A DNA stretch of 64,000 nt. Source: Tricholoma matsutake (taxonomy: Eukaryota; Basidiomycota; Agaricomycetes; Agaricales; Tricholomataceae). A program made the position numbers and the translations under genes. The DNA is taken from contig AP026545.1 in NCBI GenBank assembly GCA_026075535.2, positions 3,472,001-3,536,000 on the forward strand, written 5' to 3'. The notes below the pieces were generated by a model. That model was not told the DNA's origin. It saw nothing but the letters and a program-made list of their open reading frames with translations, and did no database searches. Below are positions 34,906 through 51,418 of this stretch, piece after piece (position 1 is the first letter of the stretch; the number at the start of each line of letters is the position of its first letter).

Positions 34906-36115
34906 TTATTTTATTACTTAGTAGTAGTAATAAAGACTCCTGGTTAAATCCCAGTGGAGTCCCAGTGGATTCTTGGTAGAGTCCTGGTAGAGTCCTGGTA
35001 GAGTCCTCATGGATTCCTGGTGAGTCCCAATTCCTGGTAGAGTCCTGAGAGTCCTGGGGGATTCCTGGTACCAGAGTCCTGGGGAATTCCAGGAATTCCT
35101 CCTGGAAGAGTGTAGTTTACCAGGAATCAACCAGGAATCCCCCTGGAATGGGAAGAGCCAGGAATATATACTTGAGTCACAAATGGCTGGAACATTGGTT
35201 CCCAATAATCCTCCAGGAATACGTGGGGGAGGACGAAGACCTCAGTCTTTGATGCAAAACTTCAACAACTATAAGCAATTGGATTTTCAAAGACATCATT
35301 TGTTGTTGGGGTTCCCTTTACAAAATCGTTACTAACAATGGTGGACCATTCATTGCAGCACTCAAATATCTTGCAAAATGATACCACTTCAAATCAGTGG
35401 CTACAATTCTTGTGCAAATGGTCTTGTTGAAAGAACCCACCTCAACGTTTGACAATCACTATTCAAGGCTGTTGATGGAGACCAGAAGAAATGGAGCTCT
35501 GGAGCACACTGTGTTCTGGGCAGAATGAGTCACAGCTCATAAATGTATGGGTTGTTCACCTTACTTTGCAGTTGCAGGTTCCCATCCCCTTATTCCCCTC
35601 AACATCTCCAAAGCAACCTATTTGCAACCCCCACCCAATTCCATCTTATCAACAACCAATCTCATTGCTCAACATGGTATTGCACTATAAAAACAATCTG
35701 CCAACCTCAAAACCCTCTATTCAAACATCAACACTGCTCGACTCAAAGCCACAAAATGTTTCAAACTTGCCCACCAACACACTATCTGTGATTACAAGTT
35801 TGGAAAAGGCAACTTAGTGCTACTTCAAAACATGCAAATCAAAAAATTCCTCAACTGCAAGATGCAAGCTCAATACCTTGACTTATTGTCACTGATCAAA
35901 GCTTCAGAGGAGCCTACATCATCCGTGAACTCAACAGAACCATATTTCATCACCCTGTTGCCACCTTCTGACTCCTCCCCTATTTAGCTCAAAAATCCAT
36001 TCCCCTTCCTCCAAACTTCCTTGACATGGACACAGAATGTCTCAAAGCACTTCAAACAACTTTGGACACTGACAAAGATCTTCATGAAGAATTCCCAGAC
36101 CTCAGAAACAATTAG

Positions 36116-36502
36116 CCCCTTCTCTTTCTCTTTTATTTTATGACTTATTCATTTTTTTCAAATTCTTATAGTGTACTATACAAGTCACAATATTGCCCTA
36201 TAGTGTGGTCACACAAACTCTACAAGGGTTTTTCAGCCATGATGATCTTCTGAGCCTTTCCCTTATTTCATAACGTCTTTTCTTATGATTTACCTTCCGA
36301 CTTTTCATGATACTTATAAAAACTCAAAACACAAAAACAGATCTTATTCTGAACATTTGAAATTTTATGAATCTTATTACAAACATTACAAAATTTTCCT
36401 GTTTTACTTGTACTTATTTCTTATGTTTTTCAGTCTCTCAAAATCATAATTTTTATTTTATGAATTACCAAAAATGAAATAACAAAAATAAAAACAAACT
36501 GC
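36116..36502. other. AT-rich spacer between convergent R6 pol and accessory gene
   Basis: About 387 bp rich in T and A between two converging 3' ends (pol stop 36115, accessory stop 36503). In R7 the matching spacer is 263 bp. It probably holds both 3' ends; no open frame of note. Confidence 0.5.
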
Positions 36503-37869
36503 CTACTCCTCATCTTCCAACACCACCTCTAGGGCCTTGATCTCTTTGTCCAGCATCTTACGCTGCATCCTTTTCCTCACCACCTCCTCTGAAATCATTC
36601 ATCAATGCTCCTCTACACCCAAAACCCCATCATCATCCTCTCAAACTGCCCAATCTTTGCCTTTCCTGTCTCACTTTGTCCACCCTTGCAACCTCAACAG
36701 ACCTGCCTCCAGTGTCTCCAATGGTCTGATGACTCGAATATGTCGCACTAAAACATTGTATACAGTTAGCAAAAATGAAAATGACGATGTTGAACTTTGA
36801 ACTTACCAGGCTTCAGACGCTCCAAAGGTTTCACCACTGCTGCCCTAACTGGCACTCGCTTCCCCTTTCCTTTTGGCACTCCTTCCTTGAAACCCCTTCC
36901 CAATAACACCCCTGTGCCTCTTGAGTGCAATTTGCAGCACTTAGCCACTCCATTGTCTACAATACATCTCAGTTGACTCTTGAACCTCACACAGCAATCA
37001 CACTATAACCATTTTTGTTAAGTGTTTGAAATAGTTTGAAAATTCACATGACTTATGGGTCCTTCAAAATCAAGGAGGCCCTCCTCCTTGAACTTCGTCC
37101 TTTTTGCCACCACTTTGTTGACTTCTTCCTCCAGCTCATCCTTGCCCTTGCTCTTGCCCTGGTCCTCAACCACCTTCCACTTCTGTGTCCCTATAATAAT
37201 GATGTCTTCATTGTCACTTTCCTCATCATCCTCACCGAGTTCTGCCTGCCTGATTGCCTCATGTTCTGTCTGCAACGCTGCACTACACTTCTTCAGCTCC
37301 TCTTTTGAGATAGTACAAGCTTGAAACTCAGCCACTAAAGCAGCATGAGTGTCTTTGAGTGCCTGTCATCATCCCTCGAGCTTTGCAGCTTTTGCTACTG
37401 CTGCCTGCCACTTCGCTTCCTCCTTGTCCACCCATTGTTTCACTTTGGCTGCCTCTGCCTCTGCCCATGCCTTTGCTTCAGTGGCCTCTGCTTCAGCCTT
37501 TGCCTTTGCTGCTGCTGCCAGCTCTTCTTCCCACTGTACCTGCGCTGCCAAATCCAAAAATAAAATGTCCCTGCCCCACGACAGCCATTTGTGACACACC
37601 AGAGGTGTGAACAGCTCACACGCCTCATCTACAATCTTCTGGACAGCGTCAAAGCATTCTTCCTTGAGACTATCAGCAAGCTCATCATATTCAGACTGTA
37701 GACACATGGTTAGCCCTCAAAAACATCATGAAAATGTGTTGGGACTCACCATTTTTTCATAAAACCCCTTTCCCCATATTTCAAAGTTGAGCTCCTCAGC
37801 CACACCCTTTTCAGGCATAACTTTTGTGTACTCAACAACAGCAGATTCAAATTCCAGTAAAAGCAACAT
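36503..37869 (-). pseudogene. Antisense accessory gene of R6, four exons (about 399 aa)
   Basis: Exons on the minus strand: 37869-37750 (120 nt), 37695-37057, 37002-36807 and 36747-36503. Introns are 54, 54 and 59 nt. All phases match the R7 copy and the total is 400 codons. The protein runs MLLLLEFESAVVEYTKVMPE...WGKGF, then SEYDELADSLKEEC and HKWLSWG, an Ala/Glu/Lys-rich coiled coil (AAAAKAKAEAEATEAKAW), an acidic GEDDEESDNEDIIII, GLLDFEGP, a cysteine cluster CDCCVRFKSQLRCIVDNGVAKCCK, KGKGK, and a terminal LDKEIKALEVVLEDEE. Breaks: two TGA in exon 2 (near 37370), four TGA in exon 4, the second donor changed from GT to AT, and paired local shifts after the cysteine cluster. The function is unknown. 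It lies antisense to pol, starting 163 bp from the 3' LTR. Confidence 0.82.
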
Positions 37870-38031
37870 GAACAGAGGATGCAGATGGATGAGTAAGACT
37901 CAAGGATGAAAGGAAATGCCAGGTTTTTGAATTGCCCTTATAGGTTTTCAACATGATCACACATTTGTCACATGACCATGAAACTTTGATCGGCTGACTG
38001 AGGACAGTCAGGATTTCAGTAAGGGGGAAAA

Positions 38032-40678: not shown

Positions 40679-41791
40679 TGATGATACTCGACCAGGAAAC
40701 CCAAACAAAACCCACAAAAAGGCTTCGGATGGTATAACACAGGTTAGAGGAAGGTTGCAAGGTGGTACTAAATATCACCGCTGTTACCCGAGGTTAGGGA
40801 AACAGCTTTAGAGAGGGTCCGATGATGTTCAATGAGGTTTGAGAGCATACGAAGCACTGCAATAATGTTTGAGGAAAGTTCAAAGATGTTCAAAGATGTT
40901 CAAAGATGTTCAAAGATGTTCAAAGATGTTCAAAGATGTTCAAAGATGTTCAAAGATGTTCAAAGATGTTTGAAGATGTTTGAAGATGTTTGAAGATGTT
41001 TGAGGGGCTTATAGAGGATGTGGATGATTTCGACAAAGGCTGAGGATAGACTATAAGGATGTAGAAGGGCTTTGAGAGGGGATAGACAATAGACAATAGT
41101 TTCGAGAAGCTAGTATGAGAAGTTCGAAGAAGTTCAGCATAAAACACTGAACTTTGAGACTAAGTCAAGAGGCTTGGACTCAAGAGAATTGCTCTTAAAT
41201 CAGACAATTGGTGTGAGAGGATGATCTATTATGTCTTTCTAAGTAGCTAGTACAAGGCTATATATGTTTGGAAGAGATGGTACTTAAAAGGAAATAAAAC
41301 ATGAGGCATACATGAGGCAAGGTATAAAACAATAAAGAACTTTGCAAATCATAAAATAAATGAAAGAAGATGAGAAGGGAAACATATAGTCACGATGTAT
41401 TATGGGTACCTGTCCTATTGATCCAATATATCATCAAGACATCAAAGTGCCACAATTGCATCCTAAAATCCCATCGTCATGTCTCCTTGTGTCCGGTGGT
41501 GCTCGATATGCAATGCAGTAACTCATACAAGGTGTGCTGCATGTATCTGAAGGGCGGTGCGATAGGTATATGGTGGCTGAAGACGTTTGAGGTGCTGCAA
41601 AGACATTTGAACCTGCTCAAAGTGTTGCAAAGTCATTCGAAGTCATTCGAGATTGTTCGAAGTCATTTGAAGTAGTTTCAGAGCGGTCTCATGGGGTTCA
41701 TAGGGGTTCATAGGGGTTGGGAGCGTGTGTGGTGATGTGTCGATGCATTTGGAGACGTTCCCAGAGCTTAAAGTGCAAGGTGTACCTATCA
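40679..41791 (-). repeat. 3' LTR of R7 with expanded minisatellite
   Basis: 1113 bp, about 98 bp longer than its partner, mainly because a 10-bp unit CAAAGATGTT is repeated about ten times at 40870-40990 (with GAAGATGTTT variants). Inner flank TCCTCCCCCTTAC is the polypurine tract on the minus strand. Confidence 0.9.
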
Positions 41792-41939
41792 TCCTCCCCC
41801 TTACTGAAATCCTGACTGTCCCAGTCAGCCAATCGGAGTCACATGTGAAATGTGTGATTGTGTTGAAACTGTAAACAAAAGCTGAAAAACTTCTCGTTCT
41901 TCTTCATCATTCCTACACCCTCGATACTAGCTTTTCATC

Positions 41940-43268
41940 ATGTCTCTCCTTGGTGAACTCAACACCAACATCCTCGACTATGCCAAATCAATGCCCGAGC
42001 GCAATGCCACCAAAGATTTGGACTTCAAAGTGTGGGGGAAGGGTTTTTGCAACAAAATGGTATGTTTCTGCATTTGTTTTGTTGTATGGGTGGCTAAAAC
42101 ATTTGGTCTAGGGTGAATATGATGAGCTTGCCGATGATCTTGGTGAAGAGTGCGATCCAGCCGTTCAAAAGGTTGTTGATGAAGTTTTTGAGCTGTACCA
42201 ACCATTGGCCCAGCACTAATGGCTTTCATGGGGTGCCAAGCTACTATTTTCGGAGTTGCATGAAGAGGTGGAACGTGAAGATCGAGAAGCTGCTGAGGCG
42301 AAAGCACAGGTGGAGGCCAAGGAAGAGGTGAGGCGAATTCGGGAGGAGGAGGAACTAGCTCGAGAGGCAGCAGCGGCTGCTAAGAAGGCCAAACTGGATG
42401 ATCAGAGGGCCACTCTTGTCAAGGCTTGCAAAATGGCGCTGGGTGAATTTTGCGCCAAGACCCTCTTGAAGGCAGAGTTGTTGCGACGAAATGAGGAACT
42501 GGTGGCCGAAGCTAAATCAATCGAGAAGGCTGAGGCAGGGGTCGAGGACGAGGATGAGGAGGAGCTGCCCGTGGTGCAGGTGACAAAACAAAAGGTAGTG
42601 GAGATCGAGGGATGTGAAGATGGGGAGGACGAAGTTGAGGACTCCATGGAGGCAAAGTGAGCAAAGTGAGCAACAAGTGGATTGCTCAATTTCAAGAGTC
42701 CAGTGAGTTTTCATTTTGACTTCGAAGGTTTTTCAGACTGCTAACCATGTTGTAGTGCGATCGATGTGCTGGGATGAGATCCCAGCCACACTGTGTGGTT
42801 GAAGAAGGGGCGCCAAAGTGCATCAAGTGCACCAAGGTGCTGCAGGGATGTTATTGGGAGGGGGTGTTGAGGAAAGGTCTTCAAAAAGGCAAGGGGAGGA
42901 AGTTTGGGGCTGCAAAAGATGTTTTGCAGTTGAAACCAGGTGCGATTCTCATTCGGACTCCTTGCGAACCTTTCTAACTTTCTGATCGGATTGTTTTAGC
43001 TCTTTGAATTTGAGTTGTTGGGCTGGTCAAGGCAGAGTAGACAGTTGCGGGACCATTGAAACCGTCGACGCCAAAGTCGAAGCACAAAAAACAGTCGGAA
43101 GGGAAGGGCAAAGCAAAGGAGGTGTCATCAAATGATGATATTGAGGTCGTCAGCAACGAATGGGTGGTTCAACACCAGATGCTTGCAGCAAAGTTAGTAC
43201 AGAAGAAGGTGGAGATGGAAGTTCTGGGGAGGGAGATAGAACTTTTAGAAGTTATGATGGAGGAGTAG
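41940..43268 (+). pseudogene. Antisense accessory gene of R7, four exons (387 aa)
   Basis: Exons 41940-42059 (120 nt), 42112-42702, 42756-42939 and 43000-43268. Introns of 52, 53 and 60 nt run from GTATGT, GTGAGT and GTGCGA to TAG. The spliced frame is 388 codons with no frameshift. The protein: MSLLGELNTNILDYAKSMPE...VWGKGF, GEYDELADDLGEEC, WLSWG, a coiled coil (EEVRRIREEEELAREAAAAA), acidic VEDEDEEELPVV, GLLNFKSP, then a cysteine cluster CDRCAGMRSQPHC...CIKCTKVLQGC (C-x2-C-x8-C-x8-C-x2-C-x6-C, Zn2Cys6-like), QKGKGRK, and terminal VLGREIELLEVMMEE. Nonsense codons: TAA 42217, TGA 42658 and 42667, two TGA and one TAG in exon 4. It is convergent with pol (263 bp between stops) and starts 149 bp from the 3' LTR. 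Possibly a nucleic-acid-binding regulator; function unproven. Confidence 0.85.
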
Positions 43269-43531
43269 AAAAAAAAAGACTTCATTGTATTTTTGTATTT
43301 TTGTTTTTCTTTTCAATTTAAATCTTGTGAGTCTCAAAAAGTAGCAAATAAAAGAAAAAGAAAAAGAAAGAAAATAAAGAGAATAAGGGAAAGGCTCAGT
43401 AGATCATCATGGCCAGAAAACCCTTTTGGAGTTTGCGCGACCATGCTATGATGCAATATTGCAACTTGTATTGTACACTAAAAGAAATCAAAGTCCTAGG
43501 TAAGTGATTGTGAACAAAGAAAAGAGAATAA

Positions 43532-46500
43532 TTATTTGTCTTCGAAGTCCAGAAGGTCTTCGGGAATATCTTTGTCAATGTTCAAAGTGTTTCGAAGTTT
43601 TTCGAGACGTTCAGAGTCGATATCGAGGAAGTTCAGTGGAAGGGGAATTGATTTTCAAGCAAAATAGGGAAGGAGTTGGAAGGCGGCAATTGGCCAATGG
43701 AATACTGAACCATCGAGTTCGCAGATGATATAGGCTCCTTTTTGATCGATGATGATGAGGGGACCTAAATATCGAGGTCGCATCTTACAATTGAGAGATT
43801 TCTTGATTTGCATGTTGCGAAGTAGGACCAGGTCGCCTTTTTCGAAGTTGTAGTCGTGCATCATTTGTTTGTGAATGAGTTCAAAACGTTTCGCGGCTTT
43901 GAGTCGAGCGGTATAGACTTTCAAATATAGAAGTTTGAGGTCAGATGATTGTTTCTGTAGTGTGATTGCTCTTTGAGCGATGAGATCGGTTGTTGATAAG
44001 ATAGAATCAGGAGGGGGTTGCAAGTATGTTGCTTCGGAGATGTCGAGCGGGATTAGGGGATGTGATCCTGTAACTGCAAAGTAAGGAGAGCAACCCATAC
44101 ATCTACGAACTGTAACTTGTTCTGCCCAAAACACAGAGTGTGCTCTAGCTGACCATTTGCTCTGATCTCCATCGACTGCTTTGAATAACGATTGTCGAAT
44201 ATCGAAGTGAGCTCGTTCGACAATTCCATTCGCATGAGAATTGTAGCTGCTAATTCGAATATGGTTAATATGATATCATTTCAAAAGGTATTCCAATGCT
44301 GTGATGAAGGCTGATCCATTATCGCTCACGATTTCATATAGGGAACCCCATCTACAAATGATATCTTTGAAGATCCAATCCCTGAGGGTCATGGCATTTT
44401 CTTGTCAAAGATTTTGCCATTCAGGATAGGTTGTTAGTGAACATCAACCTTGTACAATATACTTGAATCTGCTTGAAGGAGGCATTTGCATAGTATCAAC
44501 ATAGACTTTGCTGAATAAAGGTGCAGGTGTGGCGATGGTAGGTGGGATGAGGAGATTTCAAGTTTGTCGTACTTGGCAGAGGTGCCAGGTGCAAATAAAC
44601 CATGCAATGTCAGCTTTCATGTTAGGCCACCAGAATCATAGGGAAATAACAGATTTCATCGTGAAGACCATTTTGTGTCTGATATCGTCGTGAGCTGCAT
44701 GAATAACTTCAAGATGATGTTTGGGAATTGTGATGATTTTGTGAGCTCCATGAGAGTCCTTTCTCCAAAATTTGCCACAATCTAAGAAGAATTCGGTGCA
44801 ATATCAAACGAAGGTAGCATATTCGGAATCTGATAAATCTGGAGGTTGTACCAAATCCTCTAACCATTTTTGAATGCAAATTAATCTTTCGTCATCCTTT
44901 TTCGCATTGTTCATTTGTGGGACATCATTGTAGTCAGATCCTCCCCCTTACTGAGATCTGAAGAGAGGGAGAGTGTCAAAACTCAATAGGAAGTAAAGGG
45001 ATGAGTCATAATGGGATTGATTTGGTGTACAAAACCGTACCGTGAAGATGATCGATCCAGTCTCCAAAATCATTTTCGTTATCGAACTGGTCATCTTCGT
45101 CTTGTGGAGGACATCTCGAAAGTCCATCTGGACCATGATGTGTACCTGCGACATGAACCAATGTGAAGTGAAAAGTGAGAATCGAGATGATCCATCGATT
45201 GATGCTAGCGCTAGGTGCAATATCAGGATTTGAGAGCATGCCTTTGATATACCTTGTGTCAACTTCAACGATGAGGTTTTGGACCCCTATTAGGTACAAT
45301 TGAAGTGCTCCGAGAGCACGATATAGACTGTAGAGTTTGAGTTTTGCTTGTGAGAACCGGGATTCGCGGTCATTAAGCGTGATCAAGCCAAATTGACTGT
45401 AATATCGTTTTCAAGGGTTGTTGGGATCGCATTGCGCAAGAAAGAAACCAATAGCAATGTACAAAGTGTCAACTGATAGGATAACTGGGGCGTTGGATGA
45501 GTAGTTGATAGCGCAAATTGCTGGGGAATTGATGAGTGCTTGCTTCAGGTCTTCCTGTGCTGCAATTTGTTTTGGTCCAAATTCAAAAGGGACATCTTTG
45601 CGTGTAAGGTGTATTAGAGCTGTAGCACATTGAGTGAAGTTTCAAATAAAGATACAACAAACTCCAATAGTCCCTAAAAATGCCTTGACTTTGGTAAGGC
45701 TTCAACAAGGTCCCCATTTGCTAACCGCTGCGATGCGAGTGGGATTGGCCATACAACCTTCGATATTGCATCAATGACCTAAAATGATTATTTCAGTGAT
45801 GCAAAGGTAGAGTTTCGGACCAGAAAAGGTTCCTCCACAATACTTCATGCATTGGACTATACGATTTAGATTCCCAAAATGTTCCCAAATGAAGCGTCGA
45901 ATGCCTGGATTATTGGCGATCATTTTGTAAGATCCTCCAATAGTGTTGCCATGGCTCAGCCGATGTTTTTTTTCAGAAAATGGCTATACTGTTCCTAATA
46001 AAATTTCTAAAATTCTGGAAATATTTGATGACATAGAGGAGTTCAAAAGCCGAGGGGCATGTTTCAGCACTAAGAAATTGGGCCAGCCCTTCCTGGGCTA
46101 TTAATGGGGCTTTGATTTCAAGCCAAGCTGCAAGCCAAACTAAAGCCACATTAATAACTTGGGAAGGGCTGGCCCGATTTCTTAGAACCAAAATATGACC
46201 CCTCGGCTTTTGAGCTCTTCTATCTTGTCAAATATTTCCAAAAATTTAGAAATTTTATTTGGAACACAATAGCCATTTGTTGAAAAAATGTTGGCTTGAG
46301 CCATGGCAACACTATCCTCTGATCGTTTGATATTCTGATTTTGGACCCTTAACTGGTGTGTTGTCGATGTAAGGGATGGTGATATGAGGGATTTCAGGTT
46401 GTAGGATGAATGTGATGTTGTCGTGTAAGATCAGAACTGAGTTCATCCAACCCATTGGTAGGGTGACAATTCGAAGCGCTCCAAAAGGTGTCTGAAACAT

Positions 46501-50403: not shown

Positions 50404-51418
50404 TGATGATACTCGACCAGGAAACCCAAACAAAACCCACAAAAAGGCTTCGGATGGTATAACACAGGTTAGAGGAAGGTTGCAAGGTGGTACTAAATAT
50501 CACCACTGTTACCCGAGGTTAGGGAAACGGCTTTAGAGAGGGTCCAATGATGTTTGATGGGGTTCGAGAGTGTATGAAGCACTGCGATAATGTTCGAGGA
50601 AAGTTTGAAGATGTTTGAAGATGTTTGAAGAAGTTCGAGGGGCTTATAGAGGACGTGGATGATTTCGACAAAGGCTGAGGATAGACTATAAGGATGTAGA
50701 AGGGCTTTGAGAGGGAATAGACAATAGACAATAGTTTCGAGAAGCTAGTATGAGAAGTTTGAAGAAGTTCAGCATAAAACACTGAACTTCGAGACTAAGT
50801 CAAGAGGCTTGGACTCAAAAGAATTGCTCTTAAATCAGACAATTGGTGTGAGAGGATGATCTATTATGTCTTTCTAAGTAGCTAGTACAAGGCTATATAT
50901 GTTTGGAAGAGATGGTACTTAAAAGGAAATAAAACATGAGGCATACATGAGGCAAGGTATAAAACAATAAAGAACTTTGCAAATCATAAAATAAATGAAA
51001 GAAGATGAGAAGGGAAACATATAGAGTCACGATGTATTATGGGTACCTGTCCTATTGATCCAATATATCATCAAGACATCAAAGTGCTACAATTGCATCC
51101 TAAAATCCCATCGTCATGTCTCCTTGTGTCCGGTGATGCTCGATATGCGATGCAGTAACTCATACAAGGTGTGCTGCATGTATCTGAAGGGCAGTGCGAT
51201 AGGTATACAGTGGCTGAAGACGTTCAAGGTGCTGCAAAGATGTTCAAACCTGCTCAAAGTGTTGCGAAGTTGTTTGAAGTTGTTCAAGATTGTTTGAAGT
51301 TGTTTGAAGTAGTTTCGGAGCGGTCTCACGGGGTTTGTAGGGGTTGGGAGCGTGTGTGGTGATGTGTCGATGCATTTGGAGACGTTCCCAGAGCTTAAAG
51401 CACAAGGTGTACCTATCA
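50404..51418 (-). repeat. 5' LTR of R7
   Basis: 1015 bp, TGATGATACTCGACC...GGTGTACCTATCA on the plus strand. It has only two to three copies of the 10-bp unit expanded in the partner. Confidence 0.9.

Follow-up and report, generated by a model that had tools for sequence, protein, structure and literature searches.

The stretch of DNA considered here, 64,000 nucleotides of the Tricholoma matsutake genome (contig AP026545.1 of assembly GCA_026075535.2, positions 3,472,001 to 3,536,000; hereafter the window), contains a Ty3/gypsy element that we call R7, whose gag-pol lies on the minus strand and near whose 3′ end a predicted further gene runs in the opposite direction. This antisense gene occupies 41940-43268 on the plus strand, between the 3′ end of pol (43655) and the inner edge of the 3′ long terminal repeat (LTR; 41791), and its four exons make up a frame of 388 codons, the TAG stop included. 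A preliminary description had proposed this frame, with introns of 52-60 nt, in this position opposite gag-pol, and both the coordinates and the splice signals of 20 aligned genomic copies of R7 agree with it. The same description had placed the start 149 bp inside the 3′ LTR, which proved mistaken: the LTR ends at 41791 and the polypurine tract fills 41792-41800, so that the ATG stands beyond the tract, in the internal region of the element and 149 bp from the LTR edge. The parts of the gene and of its host element are as follows, copy tallies and informative-site counts referring to the 20-copy alignment.

40956..41791, minus strand: 3′ LTR, a 94% match to 50590-51418; its upper edge reads TGATAGG on the minus strand and adjoins the polypurine tract.
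41792..41800, minus strand: polypurine tract, GGGGGAGGA on the minus strand, adjoining the LTR edge.
41792..41939, plus strand: leader of 148 bp from LTR edge to ATG, presumed to hold the promoter.
41812..41828, no strand assigned: 17-bp dyad, CTGACTG-TCC-CAGTCAG; in the window copy it is 111 bp upstream of the ATG.
41940..42059, plus strand: exon 1; ATG present in 19/20 copies.
42060..42111, plus strand: intron 1, 52 nt; GT and AG in 20/20, and the same position in the relative at 36.5-37.9 kb.
42112..42702, plus strand: exon 2, Glu/Lys/Ala-rich charged and acidic stretches; informative non-CpG sites at codon positions 1/2/3, 9/4/19.
42703..42755, plus strand: intron 2, 53 nt; GT in 20/20, AG in 19/20, with a CTAA branch-like motif.
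42756..42939, plus strand: exon 3, with a Cys6 motif at 42756-42857; informative sites 1/3/13.
42940..42999, plus strand: intron 3, 60 nt; GT in 19/20, AG in 19/20.
43000..43268, plus strand: exon 4, basic Lys/Gly-rich and C-terminal heptad-like stretches, independently swapped; informative sites 3/1/19, stop in 20/20.
43655..44275, minus strand: 3′ end of pol, the C-terminal part of integrase; an open reading frame (ORF) identified by eye, which has no Pfam match and converges on the antisense gene.
45006..45410, minus strand: RNase H part of pol; PF17917, E = 1.9e-4, 22 bits, below the curated cut-off of 24.8.
50590..51418, minus strand: 5′ LTR, paired with the 3′ LTR.

The six splice dinucleotides of the three introns (GT..AG) are kept, in order, in 20, 20, 20, 19, 19 and 19 of the 20 copies and are accompanied by CTAA-like branch motifs, and because three introns are conserved the coding strand is fixed. 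The frame is also far from a chance one, since the spliced reading has the fewest stops: it has 87 among 7675 codons across the 20 copies, while the other five frames of the spliced sequence hold 162-527 and the six of the unspliced sequence 237-446. The window copy itself carries six in-frame stops, at codons 76, 223, 226, 301, 303 and 312, and zero indels relative to the register of the other copies, hence no frameshift. The earlier statement that the only breaks are nonsense codons is therefore true of this copy and fails for the family, where a frameshifting indel precedes the stop codon in 11 of 20 copies. An AATAAA at window positions 43347-43352, in the pol spacer some 80 bp past the antisense stop, is a possible polyadenylation signal.

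Selection on the protein was gauged in the same 20 copies by setting aside every column with a CpG in any copy or with a TG/CA mixture and counting the parsimony-informative columns among the rest; because sites have a common history, the p-values that follow are only a guide. Informative columns number 14/289 at first, 10/308 at second and 53/274 at third codon positions, a third-position excess (53/274 versus 24/597 at first and second positions together; Fisher p = 1.7e-12) that recurs separately in exons 2, 3 and 4, exon 1 (1/2/2) having too few informative sites. Introns, with 21/129, behave like third positions (p = 0.49), and the leader at 41800-41939 changes at the rate of both (21/116). 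The variable columns that are not informative, which mostly reflect decay after insertion, number 41, 34 and 22 at positions 1, 2 and 3 and have no third-position excess (p = 0.07). The protein of the antisense gene has thus been under purifying selection, and an excess in informative but not in non-informative changes is what one expects of a protein that stayed functional during the active period of the family and lost this constraint afterwards.

The gene is nearly general among the relatives of R7 examined. The whole genome (161,040,721 bases in 13 contigs) was searched with scoring of the best candidates only, so that all counts of presence are lower bounds: the R7 gene returned at least 41 matches as DNA, and its protein at least 220 match segments. 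Among the 40 best matches to the integrase end of R7, 19 had an accessory match on the expected side among the matches listed, scored by position only; 10 of the remaining 21 loci were inspected, and eight of these have the gene on the opposite strand (L043 and L046 in part only), while in L044 and L049 it was not convincingly found. The gene thus stands beside pol, whole or partial, in 27 of 29 elements examined. The preliminary description had proposed an accessory protein belonging to the family, and this is supported on both of the counts it had named beforehand, namely purifying selection that survives the masking of CpG sites and the presence of the gene, whole or partial, in most of the elements examined. 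In 11 of 12 diverged loci, too, the integrase end adjoins the gene on the opposite strand; for the twelfth, L039, no integrase end was found within the stretch examined. One of the diverged loci, L031, has a 373-codon frame without an internal stop, given introns of 51, 54 and 59 nt, and its third acceptor ends in AAG, as do those of L033, L037, L038 and L040. In automatic calling, one or more introns were misplaced in L015, L032, L033, L034, L036 and L039, and L035 was given no first intron; these calls were excluded as evidence.

A second, diverged element lies in the window itself (35387-37869), in the orientation opposite to R7, and its gene is likewise antisense to its own pol:

36512..37869, minus strand: antisense gene of the second element, last exon broken; the pol remnant is on the plus strand at about 35387-35989.
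37994..38011, no strand assigned: dyad of the second element, both arms kept, spacer of 4 nt (one extra base).

The protein of this second element is 34% identical in amino acids over residues 1-298, its match to exon 4 is weak, and its three introns fall in the same places, so that the layout is shared even with a relative of roughly 34% identity. At G000:C11:7597547-7598377 and 7600208-7600975, two relatives of the gene occur on one strand within 3.5 kb, perhaps in nested or tandem elements.

Public protein collections yielded three relatives with a single-copy query and 27 (these three included) with an alignment of types: 23 from JGI, two from ENA and two from Logan, none of them with a Pfam domain. 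In P0020, from Logan, exon 2 is fused to exon 3 at the predicted junction, with intron 2 missing; this sequence may derive from spliced RNA or from a copy that lacks the intron, and marks the same junction in either case. The public relatives look as if they had been gene-called without introns; by eye, the translation of P0001 runs through the same polypurine-tract leader, and P0004 contains the Cys6 motif. With the C-terminal half as query only P0020 and P0028 were found, and in the viral contigs, one of eight scans, no relative of the antisense protein was confirmed.

Comparison of the elements region by region revealed that the gene has a history of its own. Distances were measured as transversions per 100 sites because CpG decay does not make transversions, with L013 taken as the R7 copy and the pol columns of L026 dropped on account of a pol deletion; LTR rows were unusable for L015, L022 and L035, as was the leader row for L035, the upstream sequence not being LTR or the start being misplaced. 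Three pairs of R7 copies differ by 0-5.0 in all regions save intron 2 of L017 (13.2). Between L013 and L040, a locus of type II, the distance is 1.1 in the LTR, 4.1 in the leader, 7.5 in exon 1, 23.5 in intron 1, 14.3 and 17.6 in exon 2, 13.2 in intron 2, 10.3 in exon 3, 29.3 in intron 3, 25.9 in exon 4, 15.5 in the first half of the spacer, 1.0 in its second half, and 1.9 and 1.0 in pol. The backbones are as close as those of two R7 copies and the genes far apart, which means that very different genes sit on closely alike backbones.

The last exon moves on its own as well. L029 and L031 are alike in exons 1-3 (1.2-5.0; intron 2, 13.2) and in pol (2.2, 1.0) and apart in exon 4 (19.2), and L030 and L037 are alike in exons 1-3 (0.4-1.6) and apart both in exon 4 (19.9) and in pol (10.9, 7.0); one type of exons 2-3 is found with exon-4 types of the L037, L029, L030 and L033 kind, the last of these in L045 and L047. 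The trees of the segments conflict with one another, by tests that are optimistic because the groups were named after the data had been seen: in the tree of exons 1-3, 79 log units are lost when R7 is constrained together with the pol-A type-II loci; in the pol tree, 24 are lost when type II is joined to L030/L036 (p-AU 0.026), and in the exon 4 tree, 32 when the type-II loci are kept together (p-AU 0.004). The gene, and exon 4 by itself independently of exons 2-3, has been exchanged between elements with closely alike backbones, and this swapping of protein parts suggests a job that rewards variety. A joint switch of LTR and gene as a regulator-operator unit was considered and rejected, LTR and leader staying close across gene types. 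Two side observations belong here: the exon 4 sequences of L042 and L048 have no close reference type (nearest 11.6 and 4.3 transversions per 100 sites, respectively) and may be further C-terminal types, and L017, an R7 copy, has the intron 2 of another gene type (compare L029 and L040), this patch of some 50 bp suggesting exchange on a fine scale.

R7 itself spans about 10.5 kb and is degraded, with no primer binding site recognised. Its LTRs are at least 829-836 bp long, the lower edges of both being minima and that of the 3′ LTR being obscured by tandem repeats. What places it among the Ty3/gypsy elements is the LTR pair, the polypurine tract, the weak RNase H match, and reverse transcriptase and integrase recognised by eye in minus-strand frames. 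Alignment of the two LTRs over 826 sites shows 38 differences, 35 of them transitions (30 of the CpG type) and three transversions; as these are mainly CpG-type transitions, the R7 copy has decayed mostly through CpG-type change.

The layout of the protein, as judged by eye, is a conserved N-terminal part followed by a Glu/Lys/Ala-rich stretch, an acidic stretch, the Cys6 motif, a Lys/Gly-rich stretch resembling a nuclear localisation signal (NLS), and a heptad-like end. The Cys6 motif reads C-X2-C-X8-C-X8-C-X2-C-X6-C, with five of the six cysteines invariant in six aligned rows, and this module probably binds metal. Fungal Zn2Cys6 clusters have the spacing C-X2-C-X6-C-X5-12-C-X2-C-X6-8-C. Membership in this class found no support, as the spacing here is 2-8-8-2-6 and no Zn_clus match was obtained, even with exon 3 alone. 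Nor did the protein match a bZIP family in Pfam, or TRP28 (PF04195) at E <= 1 or E <= 10.

Between the LTR and the start codon lies the 17-bp dyad listed above, eight bases inward from the CCCCCTTA block of the polypurine tract. Of 32 copies checked, which comprise 20 of R7, the second element in the window and 11 of the 12 diverged loci, 30 have it exact; L015 and L019 have one change each, and L035 and L041-L050 lay outside the set. The pattern occurs at 302 places in the genome versus 17 for a reversed control, and twice in the window, where 0.01 occurrences are expected. The dyad may be bound by a protein dimer at the promoter of the antisense gene, or it may fold into a hairpin of the genomic RNA beside the polypurine tract; it could also be used as a probe for elements of this lineage, with or without the antisense gene.

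Gene structure, selection on the protein and exchange are established by these comparisons; on balance we lean towards the view that the pol-to-3′ LTR interval of this Ty3/gypsy lineage holds a genuine spliced accessory gene, antisense to gag-pol and either captured or evolved by the family, whose product acts as a nuclear regulator of the element and has been diversified by template switching. Transcription would head for pol, its promoter lying in the 148-bp leader, in the 3′ LTR, or in both; the transcript would be spliced and translated, and the basic, NLS-like tail would bring the protein into the nucleus. There the Cys6 module, the charged helical stretches and the basic tail would together make a trans-acting regulator of the transcription or silencing of the element, and changing partners would drive fast modular diversification through template switching during reverse transcription. 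The element would replicate through RNA of the opposite strand, from which splicing cannot remove these introns, and this would be why they persist.

Several points weigh against this view. The gene model, transcription and splicing included, is predicted from DNA sequence. Each of the 20 R7 copies carries at least one nonsense codon, so that every one is broken. Constraint on the protein between families appears to be moderate, the ratio of transversions at second positions to those at four-fold sites being about 0.56 as opposed to about 0.22 in four diverged integrases, with the reservation that the tblastn segments compared may contain some intron codons. The protein matches no Pfam family or PDB chain above noise, which leaves DNA or metal binding unsupported from that side; the NLS, the coiled coil and metal binding were proposed on inspection by eye, and an AlphaFold model of exon 3 alone (mean pLDDT 54, no helix) has low confidence and is uninterpretable. 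That the LTR does not switch with the gene speaks against type-specific pairing of protein and LTR, and the dyad could serve the polypurine tract as an RNA hairpin instead.

The exchange invites a more specific, and to us distinctly more tentative, extension, in which the gene is an exchangeable specificity cassette: the replication backbone would stay fixed while recombination swaps versions of the nuclear accessory protein and, separately, its C-terminal module, with diversity selected as it is in retroviral env or phage immunity genes. Two other readings, each unlikely in our judgement and neither negligible, take up the same data. The first holds that the protein antagonises host defence, through anti-silencing or relief of restriction, and that its diversity stems from an arms race with the host instead of from self-regulation of the element. 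Fast evolution of the protein and module swaps on closely alike backbones would fit such a conflict, as would the heavy CpG-type change, which may point to host methylation of the elements; the VANC proteins of plant transposons, which are anti-silencing, offer an analogy. The overall constraint is, however, purifying, and no Pfam match ties the protein to a known family. The second concerns mechanism: the mosaics might be products of gene conversion or ectopic recombination among integrated copies, as the small intron 2 patch of L017 and the many copies per genome would allow, a reading that we regard as rather doubtful. Several members of one mosaic type (L031, L034, L037, L038 and L050) share similar backbones, which fits recombinants that formed during replication and then spread, and recombination at a high rate during transposition has been documented for Onsen (PMC5668417); neither point is decisive.

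Much less probable is that the gene stands in for env, with a virion or transfer protein of structural or entry type as its product and its antisense orientation incidental. The gene does lie where env lies and is swapped as retroviral env is (PMC10536682), but the protein is highly charged, its translations have no obvious hydrophobic or signal stretch by eye, and the basic tail suggests the nucleus. Least probable of all is that the antisense transcript matters as a non-coding RNA with a chance frame. Such a transcript, being convergent with the genomic RNA and overlapping its 3′ end, could form double-stranded RNA, as discussed for such RNAs in PMC7264820. This reading has already been largely refuted by the codon-position bias in each of exons 2, 3 and 4; introns vary as much as third positions do, the splice signals and the closing stop are retained, and the frame has the fewest stops of all.

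Antisense genes in this position are not without precedent. The preliminary description had called them unusual, which is too strong: ORFs antisense to gag-pol between pol and the 3′ LTR are on record from several plant families and, in Botrytis and Sclerotinia, from Boty (PMC7264820), the named cases comprising Grande, RIRE2, Retand, PvRetro13 and Boty (PMC7264820, PMC11963269, PMC8365987), and their function is called unknown in PMC7264820 (2020) and PMC11963269 (2025). The matsutake gene shares several features of the class termed aORF-3R: it lies between pol and the 3′ LTR, antisense to gag-pol, in most copies examined and with coding conservation. One close counterpart is brtn of Boty, a Ty3/gypsy element of Botrytis cinerea (Zhao et al. 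2011, cited in PMC8365987 and PMC7264820), which is likewise a fungal element with an extra antisense gene between pol and 3′ LTR; its host is an ascomycete, and the cited passages mention neither introns nor cassette exchange. The plant genes (Grande gene23, reported with its own upstream promoter; RIRE2; Retand ORF4, with TRP28; PvRetro13) occupy the same type of position (PMC7264820, PMC11963269). Unlike them, the matsutake gene has no TRP28, SMC or other meaningful Pfam match, and it has three conserved introns and is exchanged, as a whole and in its last exon, on alike backbones.

Farther afield, HBZ and APH-2/3/4 of the human T-cell leukaemia viruses (HTLV; PMC10186651) are also spliced antisense genes at the 3′ end of a retroelement, and HBZ is nuclear; HBZ is, however, a bZIP protein expressed from the 3′ LTR, whereas the matsutake protein has no bZIP match and its start codon is inward of the LTR. 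From marY1, the gypsy element described in T. matsutake (PMC10211490), R7 is set apart by description, marY1 having 6,047 bp and LTRs of 426 bp. In a largely open-access literature, covered through titles and abstract openings, we found no report of such a gene in a basidiomycete, of its conserved introns, or of exchange between backbones. What is new, against antisense accessory ORFs that were already known, is thus the spliced and modular form.

Annotation that is blind to the opposite strand and to introns can miss genes of this kind. The matsutake family brings together, in one finished genome, many copies, introns that fix the strand, a signature of selection from which CpG decay has been removed, and natural module swaps on alike backbones. 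These swaps make function testable, in that one may ask what effect follows when only the gene, or only its last exon, differs. If the gene is indeed an exchangeable specificity cassette, its diversity would have been kept, for example, for escape from host silencing or from interference by resident copies.
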